Origin: a virus | Direction: 5' to 3' (one strand) | IMG/VR virus record: IMGVR_UViG_3300031671_000001 | Coordinates: 1-46,860 of that record | Length of the DNA: 46,860 nt | Shown here: piece by piece, positions 1,397 to 45,557 of the stretch | Layout of the letters: each line of letters begins with the position of its first letter | Numbering within the stretch: position 1 is the stretch's first letter | Notes under the pieces: model-generated | What the model was told of the DNA's origin: nothing | Databases searched by the model: none | Seen by the model: the letters and a program-made list of their open reading frames with translations, nothing else | Program-made: the position numbers and the translations under genes

Positions 1397-2008
1397 TTAA
1401 CTTGCCGTAACGGTAAAGTCGGCCAGAACGCCGCCATTACCTTCAATCAGCGTTTCCACGCTCAGAATCGTCTGACGGTCAATGTTCTCCGTCACGAATT
1501 CGTACATTTCAACTTCCAGGTCCACGCGCTCAAACCATTGCCCATCGATCAATTCAGGGGCACGCACCTCTTGCGGGAAATCGCTTACCGGGAAAAGCTG
1601 TGAGAGGGCCAGCGCACCGACAAAATAGTCCTGGTACAAACCGCTTCTGATAGCGCGCGCCAGGTCGGTTGAATTTGGTCCGTAAAAGCACCAACGAATC
1701 GACCATGCCCTCGTATAGTTCCACTGCTCGTTCAGGTCCGTATCGTTCAATGGTAAATTGAACACATCGCGGATTTTGTCGTATGGGTCATCCTTTGGAA
1801 CGCAACGCAGGTAGCAAATATCCTCGGTCGCTTCCTGGAACGGTGCGCCGACCGTGGGCCATTCGATGCGTACCCGTGAAGTAGTCGTTGGGTCGGCCAC
1901 CCCAATCATTCCGCACGTCAACGGCTGCATGATCGCGTTGATTTGAGCAATCGTCAGCGCCGAGGAAGTCAGAACCGATCCGTCAGGATATGTGATCGAA
2001 GCGCCCAT
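1397..2008 (-). CDS. Tail terminator / neck protein, LIC_12616-like
   Basis: 203 aa starting at an ATG whose A is the last base of the upstream TAA (TAATG). A longer in-frame extension to 2101 would overlap the previous gene by 94 nt and is unlikely. The protein has the pattern of the LIC_12616 phage family: a hydrophobic N-terminal helix, then WSIRWCFYGPNSTDLARAIR and a C-terminal beta region (VDLEVEMYEFVTENID). Such proteins cap the tail tube or join it to the neck, which suits the position directly before the sheath gene. The TAA stop is followed, in frame, by GGA GAT GCG and the sheath ATG. Function is inferred from family resemblance and synteny. Confidence 0.65.
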   Translation of the reverse strand: MGASITYPDGSVLTSSALTIAQINAIMQPLTCGMIGVADPTTTSRVRIEWPTVGAPFQEATEDICYLRCVPKDDPYDKIRDVFNLPLNDTDLNEQWNYTRAWSIRWCFYGPNSTDLARAIRSGLYQDYFVGALALSQLFPVSDFPQEVRAPELIDGQWFERVDLEVEMYEFVTENIDRQTILSVETLIEGNGGVLADFTVTAS

Positions 2009-2370
2009 TAGTCGGCCTTCATCCTCGTGGCCATCGCACGCCAGTATCCGTAATCGACGTACTGCTTGACGAACAGCACGCGGTAGTTCTCGCCGCGCCA
2101 CACCAAAATGTCGCTTGATCCACCCACGCCAGCGGTCGCGTGCGTCCCATAAATGATTTGCGAGGACCAGAAAACCATCATCCCCTTAACGATATCGCCC
2201 TCGGGAACCATGTCCAGGTCGCGTCCGCTTGGTTCGGCGATTACTCCATATCCCTGAACGGTGGCCGTTACCGACTGCCACACCCCATTCAGCCAAGAGC
2301 CAGTTGAGCGAAGGATCGTGAATGCCTGTGCCAGATCGGGTTCGTTGACGACCTCGGCCACGCTTATCAT
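2008..2370 (-). CDS. Head-tail joining protein, hypothetical
   Basis: 120 aa, ATG overlapping the upstream TGA as ATGA at 2370. Sequence: short N-terminal helix (ISVAEVVNEPDLAQAFTILR), then a beta-rich body (VTATVQGYGVIAEPSG; WRGENYRVLFVKQYVDYGYW) resembling head-closure or stopper folds found at this position in tailed phages. No catalytic motif is visible. It sits between the gp10-like protein and the terminator-like protein, so a neck or head-closure role is the best inference. Confidence 0.5.
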   Translation of the reverse strand: MISVAEVVNEPDLAQAFTILRSTGSWLNGVWQSVTATVQGYGVIAEPSGRDLDMVPEGDIVKGMMVFWSSQIIYGTHATAGVGGSSDILVWRGENYRVLFVKQYVDYGYWRAMATRMKAD

Positions 2371-27253: not shown

Positions 27254-27415
27254 CTAGGCCGCCTGTCCCTTTTCTGCTCTTAATTCACGGTGCAAGAGCT
27301 GGCGCACGAGCTCACTGAAGTCAGTTCCTCGCTTCTCAGCCAAGGAATAGAAGGCTTTCTGCTCTTCAGGGCTTAGCATCACCCGACTCTGCAACGTCCG
27401 GTTTGATCGTTTCAT
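27254..27415 (-). CDS. Second ribbon-helix-helix-like regulator (53 aa)
   Basis: ATG 27415, TAG 27254. Short strand (RTLQSRVMLSPEEQKAFYSL) followed by the two helices (AEKRGTDFSELVRQLLHREL), an RHH layout close to CopG/Arc-type repressors. Its promoter has a palindrome between the -35 and -10 boxes, so autoregulation is likely. It lies alone between the early region and lysis genes. Confidence 0.6.
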   Translation of the reverse strand: MKRSNRTLQSRVMLSPEEQKAFYSLAEKRGTDFSELVRQLLHRELRAEKGQAA

Positions 27416-27421
27416 GCTTAC

Positions 27422-27450
27422 TTTTTACAATGATGGCCATGTCTTGTCAA
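27422..27450 (-). promoter_or_regulatory. Promoter and palindromic operator of the second RHH gene
   Basis: TTGACA (27445-27450), 17-nt spacer, TAAAAA (27422-27427) on the minus strand; the spacer holds the palindrome ATGGCCAT (27433-27440). The expected start site falls at or next to the ATG at 27415, so the mRNA may be leaderless. Confidence 0.5.
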
Positions 27451-27555
27451 GAACAATTATCGCCACATTCCCACAAAGAGCATAAATAATCCTGCTTTTA
27501 TGGCACTCAACGTGCTCAGGGTATCCCTGTATTTACGCTCCAGTGAAGCGCCGGG

Positions 27556-28038
27556 TCACGCTGCGCAGTCCCGCCTGAGCCAGCCGAGCAAGAATTGCGC
27601 CTGCGTCTGGTCGTTGCAGGCTATCTGTGCGTGCCGATAAGCCGCGCGTGCCGATAGCTCCGACACAAGGCTACTTTCTTCCACCGCGTTCGCCAGCTTG
27701 ACCGTCTCCGGCCCTACCAGGCCGTCAATCACTAGCGGCCCCACGCTGAAGTATGCCAACGCTTGCTGTAGCAGCTTCCCTGCCGTCTCCTGCCCGAAGT
27801 TGACCGCCATGTCGAGCATCTTGTTAGCTACGAGCTGAGAGTGGAGGCCATCAAAGCGCCAGTAGTCACGGCAATAGATGGCGATGGCTTGTGCTTCGGT
27901 GAGGTTGCGGATGTCGAGCTGGGGATAGGCGCGCTTAGAGATGCCATACTTCGTGATCCCGCCTGCGTCTGAGGGGTTCTTTACCAGGCCGCCTTCGATG
28001 CGGATCAAGCGTTGGACGGCAATGTTGAAATCAGCCAT
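27556..28038 (-). CDS. Endolysin, GH108 N-acetylmuramidase
   Basis: 160 aa. The GH108 signature is clear: catalytic Glu in RLIRIEGGLVKNPSDAGGIT, then KYGISKRAYPQ, AIYCRDYWRFDG, and LDMAVNFGQETAGKLLQQAL. The C-terminal half carries the peptidoglycan-binding segment (IDGLVGPETVKLANAV). It cleaves the glycan strands of peptidoglycan to release progeny. No signal peptide or N-terminal membrane helix, so it needs a holin. Candidate holins are encoded upstream (29091-29438, 30720-30896). It follows the two tRNA genes and ends the leftward late block. Confidence 0.9.
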   Translation of the reverse strand: MADFNIAVQRLIRIEGGLVKNPSDAGGITKYGISKRAYPQLDIRNLTEAQAIAIYCRDYWRFDGLHSQLVANKMLDMAVNFGQETAGKLLQQALAYFSVGPLVIDGLVGPETVKLANAVEESSLVSELSARAAYRHAQIACNDQTQAQFLLGWLRRDCAA

Positions 28039-28072
28039 TCGGTGTGTTATTCTCCGCTTTGTAAGAGTTTTG

Positions 28073-28156
28073 CGGAGAGGGTGGGAGTCGAACCCACAAA
28101 TCCTCTAGGGATCGCGATTTTAAAGATCGCCGGGCTTACCGATGCCCAACCTCTCC
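28073..28156 (-). tRNA. Class II tRNA with anticodon UUA (ochre suppressor type)
   Basis: Cloverleaf: acceptor GGAGAGG/CCTCTCC (7 bp), D-arm GGGC/GCCC, anticodon stem GCGAT/ATCGC around loop CTTTAAA, so U33 is followed by UUA, which pairs with UAA. The variable arm is long (stem ATCC/GGAT) and the T-arm is GTGGG TTCGACT CCCAC. The discriminator base is G; CCA is not encoded. A long variable arm plus G73 are serine identity elements, and the loop differs from a tRNA-Ser(UGA) loop (CTTGAAA) by one base. The 4-bp D-stem is unusual for Ser. Predicted charging with Ser is an inference. Confidence 0.8.
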
Positions 28157-28161
28157 ACGAA

Positions 28162-28255
28162 TGGCGGGGGCGGTTAGATTCGAACTAGCGAACCCTGTGC
28201 GAGCAGGGTTGGCCGATTATAAGCCGGCTACATTCAACCGCTCTGGCACGCCCCG
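28162..28255 (-). tRNA. Class II tRNA-like gene with anticodon UAU
   Basis: Encoded CCA (28164-28162) after discriminator G. Acceptor CGGGGCG/CGCCCCC has a C-C mismatch at the first pair. Anticodon stem GCCGG/TCGGC with loop CTTATAA gives UAU (codon AUA). The variable arm is very long (7-bp stem AACCCTG/CAGGGTT); the T-arm (GCTAG TTCGAAT CTAAC) has one mismatch. The D-region TGCCAGAGCGGTTGAAT resembles tRNA-Ser genes. A Ser-type body with an Ile-type anticodon is odd; it may be degenerate or a decoder of another kind. Confidence 0.65.
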
Positions 28256-28278
28256 CCCTAGTTATTTCTGTTTAGGTT

Positions 28279-28539
28279 TCACCGTTCCGGGGCTGGATTC
28301 GGCAGGCACTTCGGACGGAGCGCCTTCTCTTTTTCGTGCTGTTCCTTCCATTCCTTGAGCCTGTCCTTCAGCACCTGTTGCCACCGGTTATGCCGGTAAA
28401 CGCAGATGGCCGTCTCGGGCAGCCACGCACTCTTGATGTTCCCGCTGTTCTCAATCAGAACATCGAAGTGCTGGCAGCAGTACGACTTACCGTCCAGTTC
28501 GTGCCGCGCGCGGCGCGCGCACCACGCGCACTTTGGCAT
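28279..28539 (-). CDS. Zinc-finger-like small protein (86 aa)
   Basis: MPKCAWCARRARHELDGKSY followed by CCQHF gives a CxxC...CxxH zinc site at the N-terminus. A charged helix (DRLKEWKEQHEKEKALRPK) ends the protein. TGA stop. It follows the small membrane gene by 13 bp. Unknown role, expressed with the lysis genes. Confidence 0.55.
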   Translation of the reverse strand: MPKCAWCARRARHELDGKSYCCQHFDVLIENSGNIKSAWLPETAICVYRHNRWQQVLKDRLKEWKEQHEKEKALRPKCLPNPAPER

Positions 28540-28552
28540 TGAATGTCCTCAC

Positions 28553-28780
28553 TCACTTGAAGCCGTCCCGGTTCCGCGCAACGCGGTCCTTGTAATCCTC
28601 AATGGCAACCAGTTTCGTTACGGTGGCGCTTAATTCGTCGAGAATCAGCTGTGCCTTCTCGCGCCACTCCTCGATACTATTCAGGCGCTGCCCCATCGTG
28701 CCAGCTGTGTAGGCCCATGCAATGATGACGAATACGATGGTGAGCGCGTTGCCAAGATCAATGTGCCAGAATGGCTGCAT
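28553..28780 (-). CDS. Membrane-anchored coiled-coil protein, spanin- or holin-like (75 aa)
   Basis: ATG 28780 overlaps the upstream stop (TGATG). One membrane helix (NALTIVFVIIAWAYTAGTM) then a helix with heptads (EKAQLILDELSATVTKLV). N-in anchor plus periplasmic coil recalls Rz-like i-spanins, though it is short. A holin accessory is the alternative. Confidence 0.45.
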   Translation of the reverse strand: MQPFWHIDLGNALTIVFVIIAWAYTAGTMGQRLNSIEEWREKAQLILDELSATVTKLVAIEDYKDRVARNRDGFK

Positions 28781-29091
28781 CACTTTTTCTCCGCCTTACA
28801 CGAAAAGGGTGAATCTATGCACAGTTGTCCGCTTTTTATCCAGGAGTGATAGCAGCCATAGGCAAGAAAACTAGGAGACAAACTCATTGTTTCCAGGGCA
28901 TCTCCCGTTCTTTGCCAATGGGGACACTCGCTGTCCGGCCACCGCGATTCAGAGGCTCCAATCGGCTTTATGAACAGCGCTAGATACTCTCTCCCGCAAT
29001 TAGGACATCGGATTCGGAGGCCATACTTTATGGTCCCTTCCACGTCGTCATATTCCAAGAATCGAGCAAAATCTTTCAGTGGGTAGTCCAT
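28780..29091 (-). CDS. Zinc-ribbon-like protein (103 aa)
   Basis: ATG 29091 overlaps the previous stop (TGATG). The longer frame to 29307 runs over the upstream gene. Sites RCPNCGREYLALFI and DSECPHWQRTGDALE suggest one zinc ribbon, with more Cys/His near the C-terminus. No family recognised. Confidence 0.5.
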   Translation of the reverse strand: MDYPLKDFARFLEYDDVEGTIKYGLRIRCPNCGREYLALFIKPIGASESRWPDSECPHWQRTGDALETMSLSPSFLAYGCYHSWIKSGQLCIDSPFSCKAEKK

Positions 29092-29438
29092 CACTTTTTC
29101 TCCGCTTCCGAGCCTATGATCGTCACCTGGTCGGGATGCTCCTGCATCTGCGTGATGAACGCCTTGGGCAGCGATTGGATCAGGTCGCGGCCAAGCGGCG
29201 ATACGCTGCACACGCCGAACCATGCCGCAGCGAGCGCAAAGAGGCCGGCGCCAGACGCATCCCGCCAGCCTCTCCCCGCCAATAATGCGAGCCCAGCTAG
29301 CCCGCAACTCGAAATCACGCCGCTTACGATCAGCGACGTGAAGAGCTTAAGCCACGCCTGAATCATCTTGTCCTTGCGCACCGATAGCCACCAGTTCAGC
29401 AGTACATCGCCAATCGCACCCAGTCCGGTCAGGTCCAT
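29091..29438 (-). CDS. Two-helix membrane protein, candidate holin (115 aa)
   Basis: ATG 29438. N-terminal amphipathic region (MDLTGLGAIGDVLLNWWLSV), membrane helices LFTSLIVSGVISSCGLAGLA and GAGLFALAAAWFGVCSV, and a charged C-terminus (GSEAEKK). The topology fits class II holins, and it is encoded a few genes before the endolysin. No sequence family is recognised. Confidence 0.55.
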   Translation of the reverse strand: MDLTGLGAIGDVLLNWWLSVRKDKMIQAWLKLFTSLIVSGVISSCGLAGLALLAGRGWRDASGAGLFALAAAWFGVCSVSPLGRDLIQSLPKAFITQMQEHPDQVTIIGSEAEKK

Positions 29439-29440
29439 GG

Positions 29441-29737
29441 CTACCTGTACAGCTCCCTGAGTTTCTCCATGATCGGCGTCGCCAGCATTACGCGGTCGAT
29501 TTCATGGATTTCCTTCTGCAAGCTCTCCATCTCCTGCTGCATGGTCAGCTTGTCCTGGTCGAACCTTGCGATGGAGTTGTCCAGGTATTGCAGGCGCGTG
29601 CTCAGGCGTCCGCGAATGGCTACCAGGGGATTCGGGGGAGCTATCGGTGCCGAATCCGGAAAGACTGAACTTGTAGTTCCGGAAGTTGCGATACTTGGAC
29701 TCTGGAGTTGGTCTCGGTTCTTGCGTCTAAATTTCAT
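29441..29737 (-). CDS. Coiled-coil protein (98 aa)
   Basis: ATG 29737 overlaps the upstream stop (ATGA). A disordered Ser/Pro-rich N-terminus is followed by a heptad helix (STRLQYLDNSIARFDQDKLT; MQQEMESLQKEIHEIDRVM). Function unknown; neighbours are membrane and lysis proteins. Confidence 0.5.
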   Translation of the reverse strand: MKFRRKNRDQLQSPSIATSGTTSSVFPDSAPIAPPNPLVAIRGRLSTRLQYLDNSIARFDQDKLTMQQEMESLQKEIHEIDRVMLATPIMEKLRELYR

Positions 29738-29844
29738 GGCTTCCCTTTCAAGTCTCGATTGGCTCGCCTAGCTAGAGTGATCAGTTGCGGGATGCTGGCG
29801 AGAAAGCTTCCCAGAGTCGCGAATGTCGCCCAGATACGTTTCAT
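29734..29844 (-). CDS. Small hydrophobic peptide (36 aa)
   Basis: ATG 29844 to TGA 29734, coupled to the next gene by ATGA. MKRIWATFATLGSFLASIPQ then a basic tail: a short membrane-like helix. No ribosome site is evident. Tentative. Confidence 0.4.
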   Translation of the reverse strand: MKRIWATFATLGSFLASIPQLITLARRANRDLKGKP

Positions 29845-29848
29845 GGCG

Positions 29849-30403
29849 TTAGAAATTAATCGACAGCCCGGTTGAGATTGCGGCTGTGCTGGGTGATACG
29901 ATGAAACCGTTCCCCTGAGTGGTGCTGTGCAGCCATTGCGCGCCGATCACCTGCACCGACATGTTCGCAGTGACGGGATAAGACAGGTACGCACCCGCCG
30001 TCTCCGCCAATTCGCTGATTCCCTGCGAGGATTGCAGCAGTTTCCCCGCCCCGCCTAGAAACGTCACTTCAACCTTCGTGGCGTCAAAGGTGAACTTGCT
30101 CGTCAGCGACTTTCCCACGATGGATGAAAGGGGCTTCGTGAACTCAGCGATGCCAAAATCGTAGCTCGCGGTGCTGGGCACGGTGATTTGCTCGTAACCG
30201 AGTGAGACTGCTTTCGTCAGCGAGAACGATGCCCCAACAATCGAAGTAGGCTGCGATCCGGTCGCGGAGCCAAGAAATCCCGCCGCCGAACCGGTCAGCG
30301 TGAAGTGCTGAAGCGAACCGGACGTGCTGGGGGAAATCTGTCCGTAAGCCGCGAGTGGCAGCAATCCAAACACGCAAAGTGCGAATATCCGAAACGCTTT
30401 CAT
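29849..30403 (-). CDS. Phage-encoded outer-membrane beta-barrel protein
   Basis: 184 aa, ATG coupled to the previous gene (ATGA). Clear Sec signal peptide (MKAFRIFALCVFGLLPLAAY then GQ) with a predicted cut near residue 22. The mature part alternates polar and hydrophobic residues (SFTLTG-like strands, VEVTFLGG, AYLSYPVTANMSVQVIGAQW) and ends in Phe (GLSINF), the usual signal for BAM-mediated insertion of an outer-membrane barrel. It probably sits in the host outer membrane; surface alteration or blocking of the phage receptor is a plausible purpose. TAA stop. Family not recognised. Confidence 0.65.
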   Translation of the reverse strand: MKAFRIFALCVFGLLPLAAYGQISPSTSGSLQHFTLTGSAAGFLGSATGSQPTSIVGASFSLTKAVSLGYEQITVPSTASYDFGIAEFTKPLSSIVGKSLTSKFTFDATKVEVTFLGGAGKLLQSSQGISELAETAGAYLSYPVTANMSVQVIGAQWLHSTTQGNGFIVSPSTAAISTGLSINF

Positions 30404-30723
30404 TGGCCCTCCTTTAGGGCTGTAGTGTCAGTTGCAAGTACCGCTTCCGCGCGGGCCACGTCGCCCGCCTGCGCTTTCTGGCCATGCGACCGCTGAATCA
30501 GGTCGAGGCCGTCGTTGAGCGCCTTGGCGAATGCCGCGTACCAGACTTTCTTGTGGGCCGCTATTTCCGTGGCGGAGGAGATGGTTTGATCGTTCTGGAT
30601 ACCAATCGCGGAGGCTATGAACTGGTCGAGGCCCACCAGCACGCGATGGATGTAATTTTCGCTTGCTGCCCTAACTTCCGCCGTGGCGATTTGCTGGTCG
30701 CTGAGTGGTGCGTCGAGGCTCAT
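30400..30723 (-). CDS. Conserved phage protein, ETISS-type family (107 aa)
   Basis: ATG overlaps the previous stop (ATGA) and its TGA overlaps the next ATG. Pattern ENYIHRVLVGLDQFIASAIG, then QTISSATEIAAHKKVWYAAF and DLIQRSHGQKAQAGDVARAE resembles a widespread small phage protein ('ETiSsr.ara...gk..w....l.d.iQ..H...A..GD..RA'), often near lysis genes. Soluble and helical. No function is known to me. Confidence 0.6.
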   Translation of the reverse strand: MSLDAPLSDQQIATAEVRAASENYIHRVLVGLDQFIASAIGIQNDQTISSATEIAAHKKVWYAAFAKALNDGLDLIQRSHGQKAQAGDVARAEAVLATDTTALKEGQ

Positions 30724-30896
30724 TGTTTCACCGGCGATTTCAGGAAGTTGGCCCCGATGACCGACAGGATCACGCCTATCCCGGTCAGCTTGGGGTCCTT
30801 GGAAATCCAGTGCTGCACCGCGGGCAGCAGGTCAATCACCGCCGCTAGAATGAACGTCCCGTAAACTGCCCACCACTTTTTAACGTGTGTCAGCAT
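30720..30896 (-). CDS. Small membrane protein, holin-like (58 aa)
   Basis: ATG 30896 with GGGAGAGGAAAGA upstream; the frame is open to 30923. Two hydrophobic stretches (VYGTFILAAVIDLLPAV and LTGIGVILSVIGANFL) with a basic end. The size and topology suit a pinholin-type or accessory membrane protein. Direct evidence for lysis function is lacking. Confidence 0.5.
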   Translation of the reverse strand: MLTHVKKWWAVYGTFILAAVIDLLPAVQHWISKDPKLTGIGVILSVIGANFLKSPVKQ

Positions 30897-31060
30897 TCTT
30901 TCCTCTCCCTTCGTGATACCCAAGGCCGCGCGTGCCTGACCGGCATCGTGAACGGATGCTGCGGCTTCGCTTCCGTCTCCTTCACATCTTCCCGGCGCAA
31001 GTGCAGCCGCAATCCTTGCTTGCGGTCGGCGTCCGAAATCAGCACTGGGAGGAGTTTCAA
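30890..31060 (-). CDS. Small basic protein (56 aa)
   Basis: TTG 31060 overlaps the stop of the beta-helix gene (TTGA). Product begins MKLLPVLISDADRKQGLRLH and ends WVSRRERKEC. It fills the space between two genes and is open far upstream only as an antisense-like extension. Tentative. Confidence 0.4.
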   Translation of the reverse strand: MKLLPVLISDADRKQGLRLHLRREDVKETEAKPQHPFTMPVRHARPWVSRRERKEC

Positions 31061-32682
31061 AAGAGCACTCTCGCCGTCAGATTCGTTGGTGGCAGTAGGA
31101 CCATGCAGGCCGCGCAGGGTGCTACAGGCCCAGCGTCTAAGTTGTAAGCACCTATCGTCCAACTCCCCGTTGATGGCCGTGCAGTGGGTATGATTTGGCC
31201 GCCATAGCTCGTATCGCTGCACAATCCCGTGGCCGTGCTGCATGTCGAGGTGAAATTCGGCCCGGCGTTTATGAGCGGGCTTCCCGCCAGCGGAACGCCG
31301 GTAGACGAAATATCGAGGCTCGATTGACTCGAGTAGTAGGCCGAGTGAGCTTCTGCGCTCGTAGCGGATTGCCAGCACGTTAGCGTGGAACAATCCGTGC
31401 TCGTATTGCCATACTTCCAGATATTCGACCCAGTGCCGAAGGCGTATTGGTTGTAATCCAGGCCAGTAATGGTTGGAGCGCCGCCAGTTCCATTTTGCAG
31501 TTCCTCTAGGGTCGCACAGCCGCTCACAACGTTGCTTTCGAATACGAAAGTGCCCTGAAGCACCACGCAGTCCTGGGTATCAATGGTGGGTCCCGCGCCA
31601 AGAATTGTGTTGTTATAGACCCACACCGTCTGTGTGGTAGTGCCGTCATTGCCAGTCAATTCAAGGAGTGCATTACCCATCCCAGTGGATTGCCCGGAAT
31701 TATTGAACACATTGTTATAGACGTAGGTGTTCTGCTGCTGCCCTCCGCCAAAATAAATCATTCCGGTGGAATACATGCCCTGCGCACCATCGAACAGATT
31801 GTTGTAGATCAGTACGCCGTTGAAACTGCCCTCTCCCGCAACAGAATCGTAAAGAAATAACTGATCGTGATGATACGTATCATTCGAATCGTCCCAATTG
31901 GCTGTAGTACCAAAATGGTTATCATGGATGGAGTAGCTTGTTTGCGTGCTTCCCGAACCGCCCGTCGCGGAAGAAAATCCCCAGTTAATGTTCCAAAGAT
32001 TGTTGTTGTAGAAGGAAATATCGGAAAGGTTCGTGCCGCCCGGTATTTCATAGGCCGCCGACACGTCATGGACGGTGCAATCGTGCATACTGTCGCCGCT
32101 GCCTTCGATATACGCTCCACTATAGTCGCCAGCGCCTCCCGTATTGTCCATGAAGCTCGTATGCTGGTACACATTGCGAATGATGAGATTCTTGATTTCT
32201 ACGTGAGAGCCAGTTGAGTAGATTCCTTCCGAAGGACCCGGCTGATTCGCGAGAGGCGGTGATCCAGATGCGGTCGCTTCGATAATCCCGGTTCCTGAAT
32301 CGGAGGCTGCGCAGACTGTTCCTGGGCCGCAGGGAGTGCCACCATCGAGAACGATATAGCTGTTATTGGAGAGGTCTACGCATTTAGCGCCGCTGCCATT
32401 GCAAGTTGGTAGACTGATCGACGCTCCAGTGTCCCATGTGACGGTTATCACGTTGCCAGACGTGCCGCTACCGTAGACGCCTAGAAATGTTGTCAGCGTT
32501 CCGCAAATATATACATGGTCACCTGCTGCGGGAGTTGAGGTGTTGAATGTCGCAACCGAAACAGAGGAATGACTTCCTGCATTGCAGGTGACTGTTCCCC
32601 CCGACTGCGAGACGTAGGTGGTCGCTGCGCGCGCACCAGTCGCAAGTAAGAGGACTGCGGACATGAGCAGTATTTTTCTCAC
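31057..32682 (-). CDS. Secreted parallel beta-helix protein
   Basis: 541 aa. GTG 32682 overlaps the previous stop (GTGA) and gives a good signal peptide (MRKILLMSAVLLLATGARAA). The ORF is open further upstream, but that part lies over the previous gene. The body is a right-handed parallel beta-helix with Asn-ladder turns: YIVLDGGT, ISFYNNNLWNIN, YSIHDNHFG, VLIYNNLFDG, TYVYNNVFNN, VWVYNNTILG. It resembles pectate-lyase-fold polysaccharide lyases or tailspike bodies. It may cleave or bind a surface polysaccharide, or be delivered to the periplasm or exterior. No active-site set is identified with confidence. Confidence 0.7.
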   Translation of the reverse strand: MRKILLMSAVLLLATGARAATTYVSQSGGTVTCNAGSHSSVSVATFNTSTPAAGDHVYICGTLTTFLGVYGSGTSGNVITVTWDTGASISLPTCNGSGAKCVDLSNNSYIVLDGGTPCGPGTVCAASDSGTGIIEATASGSPPLANQPGPSEGIYSTGSHVEIKNLIIRNVYQHTSFMDNTGGAGDYSGAYIEGSGDSMHDCTVHDVSAAYEIPGGTNLSDISFYNNNLWNINWGFSSATGGSGSTQTSYSIHDNHFGTTANWDDSNDTYHHDQLFLYDSVAGEGSFNGVLIYNNLFDGAQGMYSTGMIYFGGGQQQNTYVYNNVFNNSGQSTGMGNALLELTGNDGTTTQTVWVYNNTILGAGPTIDTQDCVVLQGTFVFESNVVSGCATLEELQNGTGGAPTITGLDYNQYAFGTGSNIWKYGNTSTDCSTLTCWQSATSAEAHSAYYSSQSSLDISSTGVPLAGSPLINAGPNFTSTCSTATGLCSDTSYGGQIIPTARPSTGSWTIGAYNLDAGPVAPCAACMVLLPPTNLTARVLF

Positions 32683-33407
32683 TTTATGGTGCTCACCATA
32701 CCGAGACCAGATACGTTCGCGCCGACCAGCGTTGCTGTCGCAGTCTGCGCGCCCGTGACGGACAGAACCTTGTCTGCGTAAATAACGGAAGCTCCTCCAA
32801 TGAGCGTTTGTTCCACCGTCCAGCCGCTTCCTCCGGTCCAGACATTCGAGGTAGAGGAATCTTGCGTAAACAAAGCGACGCCGAGTTCTGAGGCGTTTGC
32901 AGTAACAGAGGAAGTTCCTGTGGTAAATGAGAGCGTGGTGCTGTTGTTTGCCCCCGCTACTACTACGTCCCATCCGCTGGTTGGCGTCCCCGAATAGAGT
33001 GCAACCACACACCCCATCGAGTTCGTATTGTTCGTCACGGTGCAGGTAAATACTTCAGTGGCATTCGTGGTGCTCATCGTCGCCAACCCGAAGCTCCCTA
33101 TCGAATTTCCGGTGAATAGATAGGGATTGCCTGTGGGATAACTGAATGTGTCGCTATTTGTGTCGGAGCAGGTGAGCGTGTTCGTTGGCACGCTTGTGCT
33201 TCCCACGCCACACACGGCGAACTGGCCGGCCGTCACGGAAAGAGTAACCGTGCAGCTAAATCCTCCCGAAGAACAGTTTCCGCTGGTTTGATAGACGGGA
33301 GCAAAACCCCCATTACTTGCCATTTGGTTCTGTCCAAAGAAAATGGCGTTCTGCGGAATCAGCAGGTGAAACGCGAGCAGCAGATGGAGTAGCGCGGCGG
33401 TCATCAT
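32679..33407 (-). CDS. Exported beta-sandwich-type protein
   Basis: 242 aa from ATG 33407 (MMTAALLHLLLAFHLLIPQN), overlapping the tailspike stop (ATGATGA). The N-terminal helix is a signal peptide or anchor. The rest is Thr/Ser/Asn-rich beta (FSCTVTLSVTAGQFAVCGVG; TEVFTCTVTNNTNSMGCVVA) as in secreted adhesion-like domains. No family is recognised. Translational coupling with the tailspike and beta-helix genes suggests a shared surface function. Confidence 0.6.
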   Translation of the reverse strand: MMTAALLHLLLAFHLLIPQNAIFFGQNQMASNGGFAPVYQTSGNCSSGGFSCTVTLSVTAGQFAVCGVGSTSVPTNTLTCSDTNSDTFSYPTGNPYLFTGNSIGSFGLATMSTTNATEVFTCTVTNNTNSMGCVVALYSGTPTSGWDVVVAGANNSTTLSFTTGTSSVTANASELGVALFTQDSSTSNVWTGGSGWTVEQTLIGGASVIYADKVLSVTGAQTATATLVGANVSGLGMVSTIK

Positions 33408-36400
33408 GGCGCTGCGTATTCCTTTCCGACCGTTGCCTTGCAATCGGTCCCGTCATAGGTAAAGCTGATTGCGTCCAGCGCGTTTGCCGCCGTGCTCAGC
33501 GGGAATATCCCGCTTCCGGTGCCTCCGAGAACGAGCCATGTGCAGCCGGTGCCAGGCGTCAGAGTTCTAGTCCCGGTCGCGTCCTGCTTCACGAACACCG
33601 TGTACTGGCCGCCATTCACAAGTCCGGTCAGGTCAAGCGTGCGATTCCCGGCAATCGTGACATTCGCGTTGGCGTAGGGTGCGGAAGCAATCGCCCAAGT
33701 GATCGTTGCGCCGTCTGTGAGAGTTGAGAAGGCGATGGGGTTGCCGCGCACAATCGCAAAGTAGTTTGTGTTGTCCGAATAAATCGTGGCGCATTGGCCT
33801 GTCGTAAGTACCAAGCTCGTTGCGCCGGAGGTATACGACGAACCGTTTGAATAACTGATAGTGCTCGTGGTCGGCGTAATCGTCGCCGTTCCTGCCCCGA
33901 TATCGCAAGTTGAGAAAACGAAGTTGGACCCGAAGCCGGTTGACCCCGCTTGCGGAAGCGTCACTGCAACCGCGCTCGCGTTGCTGAAGCTCACATAGGA
34001 AGCCCGATCTGTTACCGCAATGGTGTAGGTCGTTCCAGTTTGCGGATTTGGCGCAACGCCTCCCAGGCTCCATGTTGCCGCCCCACCGACCCCGCCAGAA
34101 GGTGTCGAGATAATCGTTTGCGGGACGCCGTTGGGAGAGGTCGGCAACGTTGGCAGTCCGCTTCCTCCGCTATTTAGCTGTTGCGTCCAGGTGTTCGTTG
34201 CGGTGCAGAAGTACCAGTTTTGGCCTGCTGTCGCGTCCGTGGCCTCGTAAATATCGCCCACGGTGCAAGTTCCTGGCAACCCGGCCACGGTGCCAAACTT
34301 TGGGCGAAACACGGAAGCCGCCGAGAAATCCTGAATGCCACCGGAAGCGGTGAGGGCTGCCTCGTTGATCTTCCTTGCAAGCAGGCCATTCGTATCGACT
34401 TGCGCTATGTTCCCCGCCGCATCGTCCCATCGATAGGTATCCGTTTGTCCGGAATATCCATAACGATAGCTACCAATTCTGGCCTGCGTGGATGCCGGAA
34501 TGGTGATCGCCGGGGATGCCGACTCGTTGTCAATCGTGTCCGTCCAGGAGTTGAAATTGTCGATATTATCGAAAGAGATTTGTCCGCTATTCGCCCCCGT
34601 GATCTTGATGGCGGCGGCTCCTGGGTTCGTGGCGGACGTGAAAATAAGCCCCGAGCCGTAGACTGCGGTCGAGTTGTTTATCAGGATGCCGATGTCGCCC
34701 GTATTGCTCGATTCAAACTGCGACCCATAGAAGTTAACGCCGGAATTGTCGCCCCCCGTGATTCCTTCCAGGTCAACGATTGCAAGTCCGCCGCTACCTG
34801 GATGTGTAAAGCTGCCGCCGTTGAAATTGATTGTTCCCGTCACGCCGCTACCTGTTACGGACTTGATGAGTACAGGCTTCGCTCCGGTGCAGCCGTTACC
34901 ATTCACCGACAAATTGTCGAGGTTTACCGGTCCCATTGCCTGCGCGGAAGTGGTGTGCATGTAGAGGCCGACCGTGTTGCAGGTGTTCCAGATCACCAGA
35001 TTGCTGATGGTTGAAAGGTCGGTTATGTTTTGCAGGTCCAGCAGCCCATTCGTGGTGGTCGCGGAAGCGTTTCCTTCCACGGTGAAATTCGACATCCCGA
35101 CAATGCTCTGGTTCGTGCGCGGGTAACTCGCAATCACGCTCGATACGTTGGTAGTCGCCGTTTCGCAGAATGTGCAGTTGTTGGCGTTCGGACTTCCCCA
35201 GCCGATCATCGCGCTCTTTTCCCAGAGCTGGATTGCGTCCACGCCGCCCGTCACATTGATGTCGTAGTTCGTGAGCCGGTCGAATCGCCACGTAACAGGT
35301 TCCGTCGAGGAGCCAACGATAATGGGACTGGTGAGGCTTACAGTGCCCTGGCATCCCGTCGAATCCACTACGCCGCCAGTTGCGGGGAGCGCGGATATCG
35401 CCGCATTGATTCCAGCCGAGGAGCACGCATACACCGTGCCGTCCACATAGACAACGCCGTTGACTGAAGGCGTCGTAATCCCGCTAGGTGTGAAATGCTC
35501 TGCCGGCTGCATTTGACTCACCGGGAAAACGCCCGTGGTCGCCGCTGTTGTGGTGATCGTGACGGAGGTGGTACCCGCGCCCGATACGAATCCGTCAGTA
35601 TTGATGCGGCTGGCAAACTTGTTTTCCACTGTCTCACCAGTAATCAACAGGCAGTAGCCATTGATCGGCGTGAGACCGCTTGCCGCCGCTGTCCATGTCA
35701 TCGCGATGCTGCTGGTCGATCCAGTCAGGACGAACGGTCCCGCAATGTTCGAGATGGCCGACAATGAGGATTGTGTATTGCAATTGTCTCCCGCAATCGT
35801 GTCGCTTGCCGCGTAGACGTAGTAGGTGCCAGCCCCCAACGTGCCGCCCGTGGCGCTCGGAGTGCCGGCCAAACTTGTTGGCGGGTAGTTCTGCGGGAAT
35901 GCCACGTCGATATTGCCCGCGCTCGATGCTTGAAGGTCCGAGAGCCATCCTTGCGATTGGCCATCGGAAAACATGAGGCCGTTTTTGCCGTCGAGTCCGT
36001 AACTGGCGAGCTGATTAGCTGTTTGCGTGACGCGGATAGATGGGCCGTCTGCCGCGCCAGCGCTCCAGAATGGATTCGTAGTGAGGCGGAAGGCATCGGA
36101 AGTATTCGCGAAAAAGTCCTCACCTTGCGCGTTCGTTACGAAACCAGTCCCGATAATGCTTCCACTCGCGTTTTCGGCAAGTGTCGAGCAGGCAATCCCC
36201 GTGCCGCATCCGGTGGCCTCATAACCGCTGAGCGTTCCCTCCGTCACAATCAAGGCCGCATTACTGAAATTACTGTCAGCTGGTGTTGATTGATCTATCC
36301 TCACGCCCGAGAGAGTGTCGGTAGTAGCCGCACCGTGGAAATTAATGATGGCTGCTGTCGTGCTGGCCGCGTCGGATACGGAAGCCCTCGAAATCCTGAT

Positions 36401-38023
36401 TGGTCCAAACGTGAAAGCCGATCCGCTGGAATTGGTGATGCTCAGGTAGTCGCTGTCCTGGCTCTCCGTGTCCGCATTATCGATTTCCCAGTAGCCCGGC
36501 TGCGAGGCATTCAAAGGCGTGGTCTGCACGTACTGGATATTTCCGCCCACCATCCGCGTGTCTTGCATCCTGAAATTAATTACCGTGGCCGTGCAGCCAG
36601 CGCAGGCGTCTCCGCTCAGCAGCAGCCCTGGAGGATAGGGACGGCTTCCATTGTTAGTTTGCAACGAGCCTCCAAGGATGCGCGCCCAGTAGAGATTGCT
36701 CAGATGGACAGCGGCATTCCCCGATAGTCCTGTGTTGGTCACGCTGAAAGTATCGTTGTCGAGCGTAACGTCCGATGCCCCCCTGCTATAAAACGCTGTG
36801 TTGTAGCCCGTGATCGTCATGTCCTTAACGGTCACTTCATTGTCGGGATAGCTTTCATCGAGCGTTGGCCCAGAACCGGGAATCGAGCCTGCATTCGCTA
36901 ACCATATGGAGCTTGGCGGCCTGGTGAATTGTCCGCCATTGTGCTCGGAGGCGTTTCCTCCGTAGATATACAAGTCCTGGCAGCCCGTGAAGGTTGCGGC
37001 AGTCGTGTTCTGCGCTACAGTGAAGGCGAAGGTTCCCGGAGGGGAGAATACCGCCGCGCCACCGGAAAGAGTGGGAGTCGCGCACGCAGCCGCAATCGCC
37101 GCCTGAATTGCCAGCGTGTCATCGTCCTTGAACCCTGCACCAGAAACAGTCGTGCCAGCGTTAACCGCCGCGCCGGTGTTATCGACCAGCGTAAATATAT
37201 CGCCTGTGATCGTGCCCACCTTCGCAACCAGCGACGCTCCGCTTGCGCCCGCGCCATTGATCGAGATACCCATGCCCGTATGCCAGCCCGTAACCGGAGT
37301 GGTTGAGACGGTAAACGTATTCGTGCCGGATGTGATGCTGCCCGCCTGCGTGTTCAGGATTCCGCCATCACCCACCGCACCAAACACTGGATTGGTGATA
37401 TCGAAGTAAGGGCGCGGGCCGACGAAGGCCGTGTTCTCGTTCATATTCACAACCGAGAATTCCGAGTTGATGTTGATCGGCGCCGCTTCGCAGGTCGAGC
37501 TTGGGCTTTTTGCCTGGACATCACCGGGATTCCCGGCCACCGTGCAGCCGGTACCACCCGAAGAAATCGAACCCCTGGCCACTTCCGTCCAGGTTGTTCC
37601 GGTTAGCGTTAGCGTCAGGGATAGATTGGTTCCTCCGCACGTAAACGACTGAGGTAGATTGATGTTTGCCGACGTTGCCACCGTGGTGAAGGTATCGGAA
37701 ACCGCGCAGACTAGCCGGATTGTTTGACCGGGGAATCCTCCAATAAAATTTGTGATTGTCGTTGCGGTAGTGTTTGCCGTGACCCACGTACCGGACTTTG
37801 AAATGGTAGGAGTGGTACCAGTGGGAAGCGTGGGCGCTCCTCCAAGGATCGCATCCAGGGCGTTGAGGTCCCAAGTAATCGGCACCTGCCAGTTGGTTTG
37901 CTGGTAGGACGGCAATTGCAGGCCGATGTTAGGCGTTACCGTGGCCTGAGAATGGGCCTCGGGGCAGAAGACCGCGAACAACACAACCGTCAAGATTGCC
38001 GCCCAATATCGAGACAATTTCAT
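33404..38023 (-). CDS. Giant tailspike-like protein with signal peptide
   Basis: 1539 aa, ATG 38023 with AGGGGAGAAGGG upstream. Residues 1-26 are a Sec signal peptide (MKLSRYWAAILTVVLFAVFC then PEAHSQA). Next is a phage-fibre-like N-terminal element (TPNIGLQLPSYQQTNWQVPI). Around residue 205 the pectate-lyase motif FGAVGDG...DDDTLAIQAAIAAAC begins but is split by a beta module of about 70 residues (SITSGTNTFTVSTTPVTGW). Two beta-helix regions follow (about 290-640 and 860-1200), then GDIYEATDATAGQNWYFCT and a C-terminal beta domain. It probably binds or degrades host surface glycan. The export signal on a virion-type protein is unusual. Tandem TGA stop. Confidence 0.75.
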   Translation of the reverse strand: MKLSRYWAAILTVVLFAVFCPEAHSQATVTPNIGLQLPSYQQTNWQVPITWDLNALDAILGGAPTLPTGTTPTISKSGTWVTANTTATTITNFIGGFPGQTIRLVCAVSDTFTTVATSANINLPQSFTCGGTNLSLTLTLTGTTWTEVARGSISSGGTGCTVAGNPGDVQAKSPSSTCEAAPININSEFSVVNMNENTAFVGPRPYFDITNPVFGAVGDGGILNTQAGSITSGTNTFTVSTTPVTGWHTGMGISINGAGASGASLVAKVGTITGDIFTLVDNTGAAVNAGTTVSGAGFKDDDTLAIQAAIAAACATPTLSGGAAVFSPPGTFAFTVAQNTTAATFTGCQDLYIYGGNASEHNGGQFTRPPSSIWLANAGSIPGSGPTLDESYPDNEVTVKDMTITGYNTAFYSRGASDVTLDNDTFSVTNTGLSGNAAVHLSNLYWARILGGSLQTNNGSRPYPPGLLLSGDACAGCTATVINFRMQDTRMVGGNIQYVQTTPLNASQPGYWEIDNADTESQDSDYLSITNSSGSAFTFGPIRISRASVSDAASTTAAIINFHGAATTDTLSGVRIDQSTPADSNFSNAALIVTEGTLSGYEATGCGTGIACSTLAENASGSIIGTGFVTNAQGEDFFANTSDAFRLTTNPFWSAGAADGPSIRVTQTANQLASYGLDGKNGLMFSDGQSQGWLSDLQASSAGNIDVAFPQNYPPTSLAGTPSATGGTLGAGTYYVYAASDTIAGDNCNTQSSLSAISNIAGPFVLTGSTSSIAMTWTAAASGLTPINGYCLLITGETVENKFASRINTDGFVSGAGTTSVTITTTAATTGVFPVSQMQPAEHFTPSGITTPSVNGVVYVDGTVYACSSAGINAAISALPATGGVVDSTGCQGTVSLTSPIIVGSSTEPVTWRFDRLTNYDINVTGGVDAIQLWEKSAMIGWGSPNANNCTFCETATTNVSSVIASYPRTNQSIVGMSNFTVEGNASATTTNGLLDLQNITDLSTISNLVIWNTCNTVGLYMHTTSAQAMGPVNLDNLSVNGNGCTGAKPVLIKSVTGSGVTGTINFNGGSFTHPGSGGLAIVDLEGITGGDNSGVNFYGSQFESSNTGDIGILINNSTAVYGSGLIFTSATNPGAAAIKITGANSGQISFDNIDNFNSWTDTIDNESASPAITIPASTQARIGSYRYGYSGQTDTYRWDDAAGNIAQVDTNGLLARKINEAALTASGGIQDFSAASVFRPKFGTVAGLPGTCTVGDIYEATDATAGQNWYFCTATNTWTQQLNSGGSGLPTLPTSPNGVPQTIISTPSGGVGGAATWSLGGVAPNPQTGTTYTIAVTDRASYVSFSNASAVAVTLPQAGSTGFGSNFVFSTCDIGAGTATITPTTSTISYSNGSSYTSGATSLVLTTGQCATIYSDNTNYFAIVRGNPIAFSTLTDGATITWAIASAPYANANVTIAGNRTLDLTGLVNGGQYTVFVKQDATGTRTLTPGTGCTWLVLGGTGSGIFPLSTAANALDAISFTYDGTDCKATVGKEYAAP

Positions 38024-42019: not shown

Positions 42020-43053
42020 TGCACACCCGCCGTGGACGCCACGAACGTCCCACTCAAAAGCCCTTGCGCATATCCTCGCGTGTAGCCCGTCACTTGCGTA
42101 TACCAGTCGTTTCCTCGCGTATCACCGTAATGACGAACCTGCGCGGCAACAAATAGTCCGCTTTGGTCGAGCGGAGTGAGGACCTGCCCATACTGAATCT
42201 TCAATTGCGATATGACCGTCTGGTCGAGCTTGACCAGGAGAGGCGGAAGCTGCACCTTCAATCGCGGATCGAGCAGAACCGTAAAGATTGCCCCAAACGT
42301 GTTCTGCTTCGGAACCCCCACAATGCTTCGCGTGATCGATGTATCCGAAGAAGATCCCGCGTTGTAATTCGGTGGGAATGGAGGTCCGAACACCAGATCG
42401 GGATTCATCGTAATGGATGAGTCAAACAGCTCGCTCAAAAAATGTTGATTCCCTCCTATCCAATGATTCAGAAAGTTATCGTCCGCCATCTGCGAAACAT
42501 ATTTGCTAACCTTACCGAAGATCGTCTTCCCCCGAGGGTATTGTTTCGCGCCAAGTAGTTTTTTCGCCTTTGGACTGACCTGCTCGTCCACATTTCCGCC
42601 CATTTGATCGATCATGGATGAAACAACCTGAAGCTGGCTCGACATCTGTCCCATTGCCACGTTTACGAATTGCTCCTCAATGAGCCACGGCCCGGCGAGG
42701 CAGTTGAAATGCATCGTCAGATTTACAACGTCCTCGCGATCAAACATGACCTGCAAGACAGGTCCGTCCCAGATGATCGACGACTTGCTCGGGCCGGACT
42801 GATAACCAGCCTCAAGAGTCAGCCACACGGCATTAAAAAGAATGTTTTGCATTTCCGGGTCGTTCAGGTTGTAAACAATCACATCCGCATACCAGAAAGG
42901 AGATGGAAGCGTGCTTTCAAGAATGTCGAATACTATCCGCAATGCTTCCGGGTCCCAACTGCTCTGGGAGAGAACCTGTATGTCGCCGGAGGCGAGCTTT
43001 ACCGATAGTTTCCATGCCCGGCCCCACAGCGGGATAGCCGACGTTGCGCTCAC
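42016..43053 (-). CDS. Baseplate hub protein (gpD/gp27-like)
   Basis: 345 aa from GTG 43053, which overlaps the plug stop (GTGA); an ATG at 43089 is unlikely. N-terminal SATSAIPLWGRAWKLSVKLA and IVFDILESTLPSPFWYADVI are hub-like strands, followed by DREDVVNLTMHFNCLAGP and late strand TGYTRGYAQGLLSGTFVAS. It lies between plug and spike genes, so it should form the trimeric hub that carries the spike. Assignment mainly by synteny. Confidence 0.7.
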   Translation of the reverse strand: MSATSAIPLWGRAWKLSVKLASGDIQVLSQSSWDPEALRIVFDILESTLPSPFWYADVIVYNLNDPEMQNILFNAVWLTLEAGYQSGPSKSSIIWDGPVLQVMFDREDVVNLTMHFNCLAGPWLIEEQFVNVAMGQMSSQLQVVSSMIDQMGGNVDEQVSPKAKKLLGAKQYPRGKTIFGKVSKYVSQMADDNFLNHWIGGNQHFLSELFDSSITMNPDLVFGPPFPPNYNAGSSSDTSITRSIVGVPKQNTFGAIFTVLLDPRLKVQLPPLLVKLDQTVISQLKIQYGQVLTPLDQSGLFVAAQVRHYGDTRGNDWYTQVTGYTRGYAQGLLSGTFVASTAGVQ

Positions 43054-43406
43054 GCGATAGCCTCTTGTGCTGGCGCTGTGTCGTCCCATAGCAGCGCGAA
43101 GCTAGTTCCCAGATCGCTTCGTCCTGGATAGTCCGAAAGGGAATTTCCTTCATTGAGAATGAAAGCGGATCCGATAGCCAAATAGGCATACTGCGCGAGG
43201 ATGTTGGCTCCTGGATACCAGCCGGTAATCAACGGAATGGAATCCAGAAGCAAATTCTGCGCCGAGTCGAATATCGTCATCACCCAATAACCGGCCATCT
43301 CGGACCAACGCAATACGAGGTTCAAGGTCAGTGGAGATCCATCCACATGGAGCTGTACCGCGAAACTCTGATTCGGCGATGGCGCGAGTGGAATGATCTG
43401 AGGCAT
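43050..43406 (-). CDS. Baseplate plug protein, Pam3 gp18-like (DUF6983)
   Basis: 118 aa. Pattern QIIPLAPSPNQSFAVQLHVD, LNLVLRWSEMAGYWVMTIFD and LLLDSIPLITGWYPGANILA, then GTSFALLWDD near the end, fits the DUF6983 family found as the baseplate plug of cyanophage Pam3. Such proteins close the hub. Its ATG directly follows the Dit-like TAA with no spacer and in the same frame. Confidence 0.8.
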   Translation of the reverse strand: MPQIIPLAPSPNQSFAVQLHVDGSPLTLNLVLRWSEMAGYWVMTIFDSAQNLLLDSIPLITGWYPGANILAQYAYLAIGSAFILNEGNSLSDYPGRSDLGTSFALLWDDTAPAQEAIA

Positions 43407-44123
43407 TTATTTGCTCGGCAGTCCGTTGGAATTTGAAACCGCATTGCTTGACCAGTTCCCCGCCCCTACCGCATTCCACGGGACATATGTGGGAGGTACT
43501 TCGTTCTGCTGCGTCTGCGAAGCCGATGGTGGCTGCGTGGTCAATGAACCCAGGTTGGTTGTGTCGGTATCCTGACTGCGCGCGCTTACTGCTGGCATCG
43601 ACACATCGGCCATGAAAATCTGTCCAAACTCGACACGCATCCTAAGTCCAGCAATGGTTTTTGCGCTCTCTTGCGGCGTCAGCGCCTCAATCACCATGTT
43701 TTGATAGGTTCGAAGCTTGGTTGTGATCGATAGAGGAATACGCGAGAACTGCAAGGCCAGCATTGTCTGGTATGCGGAAACGCTTTTTGATGTCGAGCCT
43801 GACCAGGTAGTCGGGTTGTAGTAGGCGTCCATCGCGTCGGACATCCCCACATCCAAAACAAGGCGCGCTGGAACGATGTAGGCGTGATCGGAAACGCTCG
43901 CGCCAGTCTGTACCGGGTGCTCTGTTCTGCGCAGTTCTTGCTGATGCTCAATCTCGAATTCGGCATCGAACGCATACAAGGTCTGCGTGGCCGGAAGTGT
44001 CGCATTCGATCCAGCCGTCCCGCTATATTGCGGGGCGTTTCCTTGTCCAGGAAATGTAATCAGCACCTTGGACGCGGATGTCGTTTGCCATTGCGGGGGA
44101 CGCCACGTAGCACCGGAACTCAT
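43407..44123 (-). CDS. Dit-like tail/baseplate hub protein
   Basis: 238 aa, ATG 44123 abutting the tape-measure TAG. N-terminal domain: LRRTEHPVQTGASVSDHAYI, VPARLVLDVGMSDAMDAY, LSITTKLRTYQNMVIEALTP and AGLRMRVEFGQIFMADVS; this 'hPv..Ga.itDH......l.l.g..sd' pattern is that of Dit_like_N domains. The C-terminal 60 residues are Gln/Ser/Thr-rich and flexible. It links the tail tube to the hub. The stop is a lone TAA followed at once, in frame, by the plug ATG, so suppression would fuse them. Confidence 0.75.
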   Translation of the reverse strand: MSSGATWRPPQWQTTSASKVLITFPGQGNAPQYSGTAGSNATLPATQTLYAFDAEFEIEHQQELRRTEHPVQTGASVSDHAYIVPARLVLDVGMSDAMDAYYNPTTWSGSTSKSVSAYQTMLALQFSRIPLSITTKLRTYQNMVIEALTPQESAKTIAGLRMRVEFGQIFMADVSMPAVSARSQDTDTTNLGSLTTQPPSASQTQQNEVPPTYVPWNAVGAGNWSSNAVSNSNGLPSK

Positions 44124-45557
44124 CTAATAGCTCCATCCGGGCGTCTGGAATTCGGCGATGTTCCTCTGGGTGCGTTGGTTCTGAGTGGCCGCGACCGCCT
44201 TGGCCGTTTCCGTGGCTATCTTTTTAGGATCGGCGTTGCTTGCCACATTCACCGTGACATTAATAGTCGCTTCGGCCTGGAGAACGCGATTGGCATATGC
44301 CGCATTCTCGGCGGGATTCTTGCTTCCGTAGTAGTGCTGAAGAGCGGCACCGACATCGTGATACCTATCGAGGAGCTGCTTCAAATATTTCACGCCTCCA
44401 TATACGTTTTCTCCAATGCTGGACGGATTGACGCCTAGCATCTTCGCGGTATCCGGCTGAAGCTGGAATATCCCCGCCGCATGAGAGCCTGGAACATTCG
44501 AGGTCAGCACATTTCCGGATTTATCGAATTGCTGGAAATTGCTTTCTATTTGAGCGACAGCAAGGGCCAACTCCGGAGCCACTCCGAGCGCTTTCGCCTG
44601 AGAAACGATGTCAGCCTGTATCGAGGATTTAGAAACGTGCGTTTGCCCATGAAGCAGAACATCAATGGGAGAACCTGGAAGGATCGATAGGGCCGGTCCT
44701 TGTCCTTCGGGACCCAGCAGTTTATTGGCCTCTTTCAGGTCCGACCATGAACCCTTGAAGTCGCCTCTGGCCATCTTGGCAAAGGCGCTCTCGATAGAGT
44801 TCAGTCCCATCACGGATGTGGCTATATCGTGAATGAACTTCTGTATGGGAAGCTGCGATATGTCGATGCCGATTTGCTTGATTAGCTCTCCCGTGCTTTT
44901 AAGAACGTTCCAAACGTCGATCAAGACGGGCTTCAGTTTCGTGGCAATAACCTGCGCGAAAAATGGAATGTTGGCGATAAACCACGCGTTGAAATGGCGC
45001 ATCTTTTCTAGCAGGCCATCAATGGTCGTTCCGAATGCCCTTGCGAGGTCCTGAACAACATTCATTGACAGGTATTGCAGTTCAACTCCCAGGCGCGTGA
45101 ACTCGAAACGCACGTCGCGAATCCTGAGCATTTGATTCTCGAATCCCGGCCCCAACTGCTGCGTAAGTGTCCTCTGATCCTGCACTAGCTGGTGGAAACG
45201 TCCGGCAAGTTCCGGGTCCCACATCACGTTTTCCAGCGGCTGTCCCAGCGCGTCTAGGGCAACCTTCAGCTCGCGGGCTACAGGCAGGGATGTGTACATG
45301 TGCAGAGCGAGCAAGCGGTATTCCTGGTCCGCCATCGCCGTCTTGTCGACGATCCCAATAGCAGCGGCACCCGTAGCCGCAAACGCTCCAATGATTGCGG
45401 ACTGGAATTCCAGAATGCTTTTGCCCATGCGAAGGAATTGGTTGTCAACGAGGGCGGAAGCATCACGCAGGTCTGCCGCGAAGCGGGCATAACTTACCGA
45501 GTCGGATTGAAATCCAAGCTTGACGAGATATTCATCGATGACGTTCTGATTGGGCAT
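44124..45557 (-). CDS. Tape measure protein with lytic transglycosylase domain
   Basis: 477 aa, ATG 45557, overlapping the frameshift frame by 26 nt. The N-terminal two thirds are helical with a hydrophobic region (SAIIGAFAATGAAAIGIVD) and set tail length; this is short for a tape measure and implies a short tail. Residues about 315-430 are an SLT domain: VAPELALAVAQIESNFQ (catalytic Glu), GSHAAGIFQLQPDTAKMLGV, NVYGGVKYLKQLLDRY and YYGSKN. It probably cuts peptidoglycan during DNA entry. TAG stop. Confidence 0.85.
   Translation of the reverse strand: MPNQNVIDEYLVKLGFQSDSVSYARFAADLRDASALVDNQFLRMGKSILEFQSAIIGAFAATGAAAIGIVDKTAMADQEYRLLALHMYTSLPVARELKVALDALGQPLENVMWDPELAGRFHQLVQDQRTLTQQLGPGFENQMLRIRDVRFEFTRLGVELQYLSMNVVQDLARAFGTTIDGLLEKMRHFNAWFIANIPFFAQVIATKLKPVLIDVWNVLKSTGELIKQIGIDISQLPIQKFIHDIATSVMGLNSIESAFAKMARGDFKGSWSDLKEANKLLGPEGQGPALSILPGSPIDVLLHGQTHVSKSSIQADIVSQAKALGVAPELALAVAQIESNFQQFDKSGNVLTSNVPGSHAAGIFQLQPDTAKMLGVNPSSIGENVYGGVKYLKQLLDRYHDVGAALQHYYGSKNPAENAAYANRVLQAEATINVTVNVASNADPKKIATETAKAVAATQNQRTQRNIAEFQTPGWSY

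Follow-up and report, generated by a model that had tools for sequence, protein, structure and literature searches.

UAA is the stop codon recognised by both bacterial release factors, and a tRNA with the anticodon UUA would read it as an amino acid. What might such a tRNA do in a phage that ends its own genes with TAA? The question is raised by the window analysed here, a stretch of 46,860 nucleotides that makes up the whole of IMG/VR virus record IMGVR_UViG_3300031671_000001 and carries a class II tRNA gene with anticodon UUA and discriminator G73 (28073..28156, minus strand; ARAGORN, Rfam and a geometry scan). A first-pass annotation had taken it for a serine-inserting ochre suppressor that would serve as a readthrough or timing device, or act against host genes.

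The two ends of the record are joined by a sister contig via a 188-base overlap, and the window therefore represents a complete genome of ~46.7 kb. It belongs to a tailed phage from soil, with genes for terminase, portal, major head protein, a DUF3383 sheath-type protein, a Dit-like protein and baseplate proteins. Judged through the sister contig, positions 1-188 and 46673-46860 form a near-identical 188-base terminal repeat; the record is classed as linear. No integrase match (PF00589 or PF00239) was found anywhere in the record. Among isolates, the phage is closest to a prophage carried by Acidobacteria bacterium AB60 (portal 56%, head protein 61%); the portal match is the same in a 68.7 kb IMG/VR record as in the AB60 contig. 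As this nearest isolate prophage resides in a member of Acidobacteriota, the phage host probably lies in Acidobacteriota as well.

The UUA tRNA, its identity and its neighbours

The complete class II cloverleaf described in the first-pass annotation, which had named ARAGORN and covariance scoring as checks, is confirmed by both programs. ARAGORN called a tRNA-Stop with anticodon tta at 28072-28156, and Rfam model RF00005 matched 28073-28156 with 52.1 bits (E-value 1.9e-8, no non-standard pairs marked), compared to a gathering cut-off of 29 bits. The coordinates given earlier were right, with the correction that the gene lies on the minus strand. The score above the cut-off is accompanied by the paired stems expected of a functional cloverleaf: seven of seven pairs in the acceptor stem, four of four in the D stem and five of five in both the anticodon and T stems, all of them Watson-Crick. 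U33 and a TTC in the T loop are likewise present. The anticodon UUA (28121..28123, minus strand) occupies positions 34-36 of the 7-nt loop CUUUAAA (28119-28125), as it should in an ochre suppressor tRNA. This loop also contains A36-A37-A38, the motif that would be expected to accompany a hypermodified A37 in tRNAs for codons starting with U. The long variable arm GATCCCTAGAGGATTT (28098..28113, minus strand), as parsed in the class II comparison, has 16 nt and a stem of 4-5 bp. A geometry scan of both strands for fully Watson-Crick acceptor, T and anticodon stems returned this gene as the sole match in 46.9 kb, and nothing in 20 shuffled windows. The MFE z-score is -3.4, with none of 200 shuffles equally good and with a single-strand MFE structure that differs from the cloverleaf. 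Altogether, this is a real, well-formed, phage-borne ochre tRNA. It does not encode CCA, the bases that come next being CAA, unlike the listed tRNAs of AB60, which do encode CCA; this counts against the suppressor function favoured below.

The amino acid identity was approached by comparison with 176 class II tRNAs (77 Ser, 68 Leu and 31 Tyr) taken from the loci collected here. The discriminator G73, proposed earlier as a serine-type mark, is found in 64/77 Ser tRNAs, 0/68 Leu tRNAs and 1/31 Tyr tRNAs; the pair A3-U70, also present in the UUA tRNA, occurs in 86%, 3% and 29% of them, respectively. The gene thus combines the two features looked for in a SerRS substrate, G73 and a long variable arm, and SerRS ignores the anticodon. 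Moreover, its last 25 nt are identical to those of AB60 tRNA-Ser(GGA) at 24 positions, its 5′ acceptor strand matches that tRNA at 7/7 nt, and the closest whole bodies among 1134 tRNAs are mostly Ser, all of which agrees with the serine-type identity elements claimed at the outset. The further claim, a distance of one base from tRNA-Ser(UGA), is true of the anticodon loop alone: the core is atypical for Ser, with a four-pair D arm bearing C13-G22 and U15, and with U48. A feature classifier, which replaced a local HMM isotype scoring that did not discriminate and which assigned 71 of the 77 Ser tRNAs correctly in a leave-one-out test, favours Ser over Leu by ~17 log units and Ser over Tyr by less than one, a near tie that is due to the unusual D arm. 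Because of this D arm, we infer charging with serine rather than assert it; serine is the best reading of the identity, and a likely one.

A second class II tRNA, overlooked in the first-pass annotation, sits 8 nt upstream at 28165..28255 on the minus strand (ARAGORN, Rfam). It has the anticodon UAU (28219-28221), G73, a Ser-like body, a variable arm that forms a perfect 7-bp hairpin and an encoded CCA reaching 28162. Among the 1134 tRNAs, it comes closest to tRNA-Ser(UGA) from Burkholderia phage DC1 and to a Ser-like tRNA with anticodon UAU from an Acidobacteriota genome. With only 32.8 bits in Rfam, a C1-C72 mismatch and one mismatch in the T stem, this neighbour is, to judge by its sequence, degenerate, which likewise counts against the suppressor reading.

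The tRNA pair directly precedes, on the same strand, a gene for an endolysin with Glyco_hydro_108 and PG_binding_3 domains (27556..28038, minus strand; PHROG 315, Pfam), which begins 34 nt past the UUA tRNA; an SD-like GGAG lies 13 nt from its ATG, which is far. Upstream of the pair is an 86-aa open reading frame without family match (28279..28539, minus strand). No promoter was found, and neither a promoter nor a terminator near the tRNAs is convincing. A search for an HDV-like ribozyme beside the tRNAs, as in theta-ribozyme-linked phage suppressor tRNAs, gave no match at 27400-28900 even at E<=1 with Rfam 15, which may lack the theta model. Searches for near-identical DNA among phages and plasmids yielded no match, and no relatives of the endolysin were found among viral contigs. 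In near-identical contigs the coverage ends before the tRNA region. Sister contig 3300031672_000006 covers the remaining genome and breaks off on both sides of 27493-37886, a segment containing the tRNAs, the lysis genes and genes of the tail-fibre region; this gap perhaps reflects strain variation.

TAA usage and in-frame junctions

A simple gene call of 38 genes gave 22 TGA, 9 TAG and 7 TAA stops, and an alternative call found TAA at the end of 5/32 genes. By these gene calls, the earlier count of at least 12 genes ending in TAA was too high, and its point that the phage does not avoid TAA stands. In AB60, 31/154 stops (20%) are TAA, no different from the 7/38 of the phage (Fisher p=1). The genes closed by TAA include those of the tail terminator, the Dit-like protein and the protein preceding the major head protein. 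Apart from ordinary junctions between genes, no coding frame in the phage carries on past a TAA. With no in-frame TAA inside genes and no avoidance of the codon, a recoded phage in which TAA is sense was rejected: this phage does not recode TAA.

Of the in-frame TAA junctions, only those at 43407, 1397 and 12888 look coding on both sides, and each of the three leads into a regular following gene whose frame opens with an ATG of its own. The Dit-like tail protein gene (43407..44123, minus strand) ends in TAA followed by the in-frame ATG of a gene resembling the Pam3 plug gp18 (43050..43406, minus strand), and is a candidate readthrough junction only; the tail-terminator gene (1397..2101, minus strand) likewise ends in TAA and shares its frame with the DUF3383 sheath-type gene at 2-1387. 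Over 43050-45557, the genes for an SLT-domain protein, the Dit-like protein and the plug-like protein abut without gaps in one frame, with TAG directly followed by ATG at one junction and TAA directly followed by ATG at the other. The AB60 prophage, in which no tRNA gene was found, also has several zero-gap in-frame junctions, with TAG between the Dit and plug genes. Such junctions thus occur without a suppressor and are a gene-packing habit of the phage group, not readthrough, and we rejected them as readthrough evidence. The readthrough device proposed in the first-pass annotation is accordingly left with no target found, as its candidate junctions are ordinary gene boundaries shared with a suppressor-free prophage.

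Ochre and UAU tRNAs elsewhere

When 2.9 million viral contigs (IMG/VR) were scanned with a strict pattern and the matches passed to ARAGORN, the loci retrieved included 12 records with class II ochre tRNAs, the window among them; four of these 12 carry one identical tRNA. The class II ochre tRNAs comprise Ser-type genes (the window and L059, the second clear case), Leu-type genes (L014, L037 and the L052 group) and unclear kinds. A corresponding scan for class I bodies gave 20 called ochre tRNAs. Several ochre tRNAs are the only tRNA called in their record or fetched locus. Like the UUA tRNA of the window, those of L059, L014, L037, L052 and L010 are class II tRNAs with UUA and an intact or nearly intact cloverleaf, but their bodies are different. 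As ochre tRNAs thus appear in unrelated viral contigs on different bodies, they have arisen repeatedly and separately in phages. A looser pattern for diverged relatives of the UUA tRNA itself gave two matches in viral contigs, neither of them a tRNA. Among 396 sampled Acidobacteriota genomes, the class II ochre pattern gave six matches, about as many as the reversed-pattern control, and none passed ARAGORN.

Some Leu-type ochre tRNAs (L052, L055, L063 and L073; also L110) are followed, 100-130 nt downstream and in the same orientation, by an IS1-like transposase. The unit of tRNA and transposase is common to L052, L055, L063 and L073 with 100% identity over about 2.4-2.5 kb, and in L014 (L111) a different Leu-type ochre tRNA lies ahead of a 65% identical transposase. 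This IS1-like unit may be a transposon with an ochre tRNA as cargo.

Ser-type UAU tRNAs were found at L172 1488-1573, in an unrelated Acidobacteriota prophage amid terminase, portal and minor head genes (L185 8000-9500), and in two further acidobacterial loci (L180 and L183). Viral contigs hold at least 120 stretches with UAU tRNAs whose variable arm is of class II length (strict scan), with at least 98 ARAGORN calls (L188-L307; also L173 and L174). Most of these end in A73, and 60 of 75 distinct long-arm UAU tRNAs have AGAT in the variable region, compared to 6 of 192 other class II tRNAs. One is carried by Sinorhizobium phage Phosso, where it is annotated as tRNA-Ile(tat), and the long-arm UAU tRNAs of viral contigs look like a distinct family of phage tRNA-Ile(UAU). 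Another acidobacterial contig (L175 1-3047) packs about 30 tRNA genes closely together, among them an odd one called with a four-base anticodon.

Possible roles and meaning

The reading we prefer, with about an even chance of being right, is that of a phage nonsense-suppressor tRNA of Ser identity that would cause partial UAA readthrough late in infection and leave the code unchanged. Given the gene with its cloverleaf, anticodon and Ser-type acceptor end, its position and strand and the absence of recoding, expression, charging and decoding may be pictured as follows. The UUA tRNA would be expressed with the lysis genes within a two-tRNA unit and matured by host RNases and the CCA-adding enzyme. 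Host SerRS would charge it with serine, the anticodon being ignored, and the charged tRNA would compete with release factors in reading UAA and, by wobble of U34, possibly UAG as well. The code would stay as it is, with some readthrough in late infection, and the benefit might lie in phage fusion proteins, in disturbed host termination, or there might be none. The atypical D arm and position 48, the near tie of Ser with Tyr, and the searches that found no readthrough target, no diverged relative of the tRNA and no promoter also weigh against this reading.

Captured host tRNA-Ser genes might instead have drifted, with mutated anticodons and little or no function, an account that we consider unlikely but of some weight. 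The mismatches and low score of the companion UAU tRNA speak for it, as do the failure of pattern scans to find a relative of the UUA tRNA in the 396 Acidobacteriota genomes or the viral contigs and the lack of target genes. However, drift fits poorly with stem pairs that are all intact in the UUA tRNA, with its A36-A37-A38 and with the independent recurrence of ochre tRNAs. The tRNAs could also act as punctuation in RNA processing, their excision fixing the 5′ terminus of the endolysin mRNA irrespective of the anticodon. This is quite doubtful: both tRNAs do share the strand of the endolysin gene and stop 34 nt short of its start codon, but any tRNA would suffice, the two unusual anticodons would be left unexplained, and the SD-like GGAG is far from the ATG.

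Phage tRNAs serve in counter-defence against tRNA cutting in other systems, which lends some plausibility to a role as replacements or decoys for host tRNAs. Here such a role is improbable, as neither UUA nor UAU decodes a Ser codon and so cannot replace a cut tRNA-Ser. An att site copying the 3′ end of a host tRNA-Ser would account for the 24/25 nt shared with AB60 tRNA-Ser(GGA), but the genome has no tyrosine or serine integrase and the cloverleaf is complete, more than a 3′ end, which makes this highly improbable. Genuine reassignment of TAA to Ser has the UUA tRNA itself in its favour, together with a cold-seep study (PMC10504277) in which TAA recoding was predicted for some viruses, Acidobacteriota being among their hosts. 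It is largely refuted by TAA at the ends of structural genes and by the lack of any frame crossing TAA beyond gene-gene junctions, and we give it almost no credence.

The preferred suppressor reading has precedents. The Xanthomonas jumbo phage XacN1 has a suppressor tRNA (CUA) with neither a detectable target nor recoding (PMC5852040), and Zeta crAss-like phages have a CTA suppressor tRNA without recoding, for which early-stage recoding or counter-defence has been discussed (PMC12386605). As in the window phage, a stop-anticodon tRNA is present, the stop in question is still used and no target was found; the window phage differs in its UUA anticodon, its class II Ser-type body, its 46.7 kb genome and its only two tRNAs. 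The UUA tRNA is thus real and not unprecedented. The suppressor tRNAs of crAss-like and other recoded phages with code 15/4 are likewise phage-encoded and stop-reading, but many of the genes in those phages contain in-frame stops, whereas the window phage has none. A survey of jumbo phages reported no TAA recoding within its set (PMC13037316). The literature searched, which probably lacks the primary papers, yielded nothing direct on UUA suppressors in phages or on UAU tRNAs with long variable arms. The classical ochre suppressor supC of E. coli is a tRNA-Tyr with UUA; similar to the UUA tRNA, it is a class II tRNA with a single-base anticodon change to UUA, but such classical suppressors are laboratory or spontaneous host mutants, charged with Tyr and not borne by a phage.

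Bacterial allo-tRNAs of Acidobacteria, Clostridia and Proteobacteria combine Ser identity and a long variable arm with non-Ser anticodons; the most frequent anticodons of the 8/4 type include UAU, UUA is found in the 9/3 type, and some UAU copies are degenerate (PMC7609411). The window tRNAs resemble them in their long variable arm and in a probable Ser identity with non-Ser anticodons, but have 7/5 acceptor and T stems and no long Sec-like D stem. Since both are 7/5, rather than 8/4 or 9/3 with a 12-bp branch, and position 8 cannot pair with 65, we place them outside the allo-tRNA class; they may nevertheless work like allo-tRNAs. The UAU neighbour connects phages with the unexplained allo-tRNA-like genes of Acidobacteria. 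The pair of UUA and UAU tRNAs in the window, the prophage UAU tRNA of L172/L185 and those of L180 and L183 raise the speculative, rather unlikely idea that Acidobacteriota phages carry a kit of Ser-identity UUA and UAU tRNAs. Late in infection, such a kit would put Ser at AUA codons as well as at stops, and it would be the mobile source of allo-tRNA-like genes in acidobacterial genomes and soil.

Most phage suppressor tRNAs in the cited publications read UAG or UGA. For the question of what “targetless” suppressor tRNAs do, a Ser-type tRNA for UAA in a phage that itself terminates genes with this codon offers a compact test case, and the ~30 further ochre tRNAs from viral contigs make the role of such suppressors testable by comparison.
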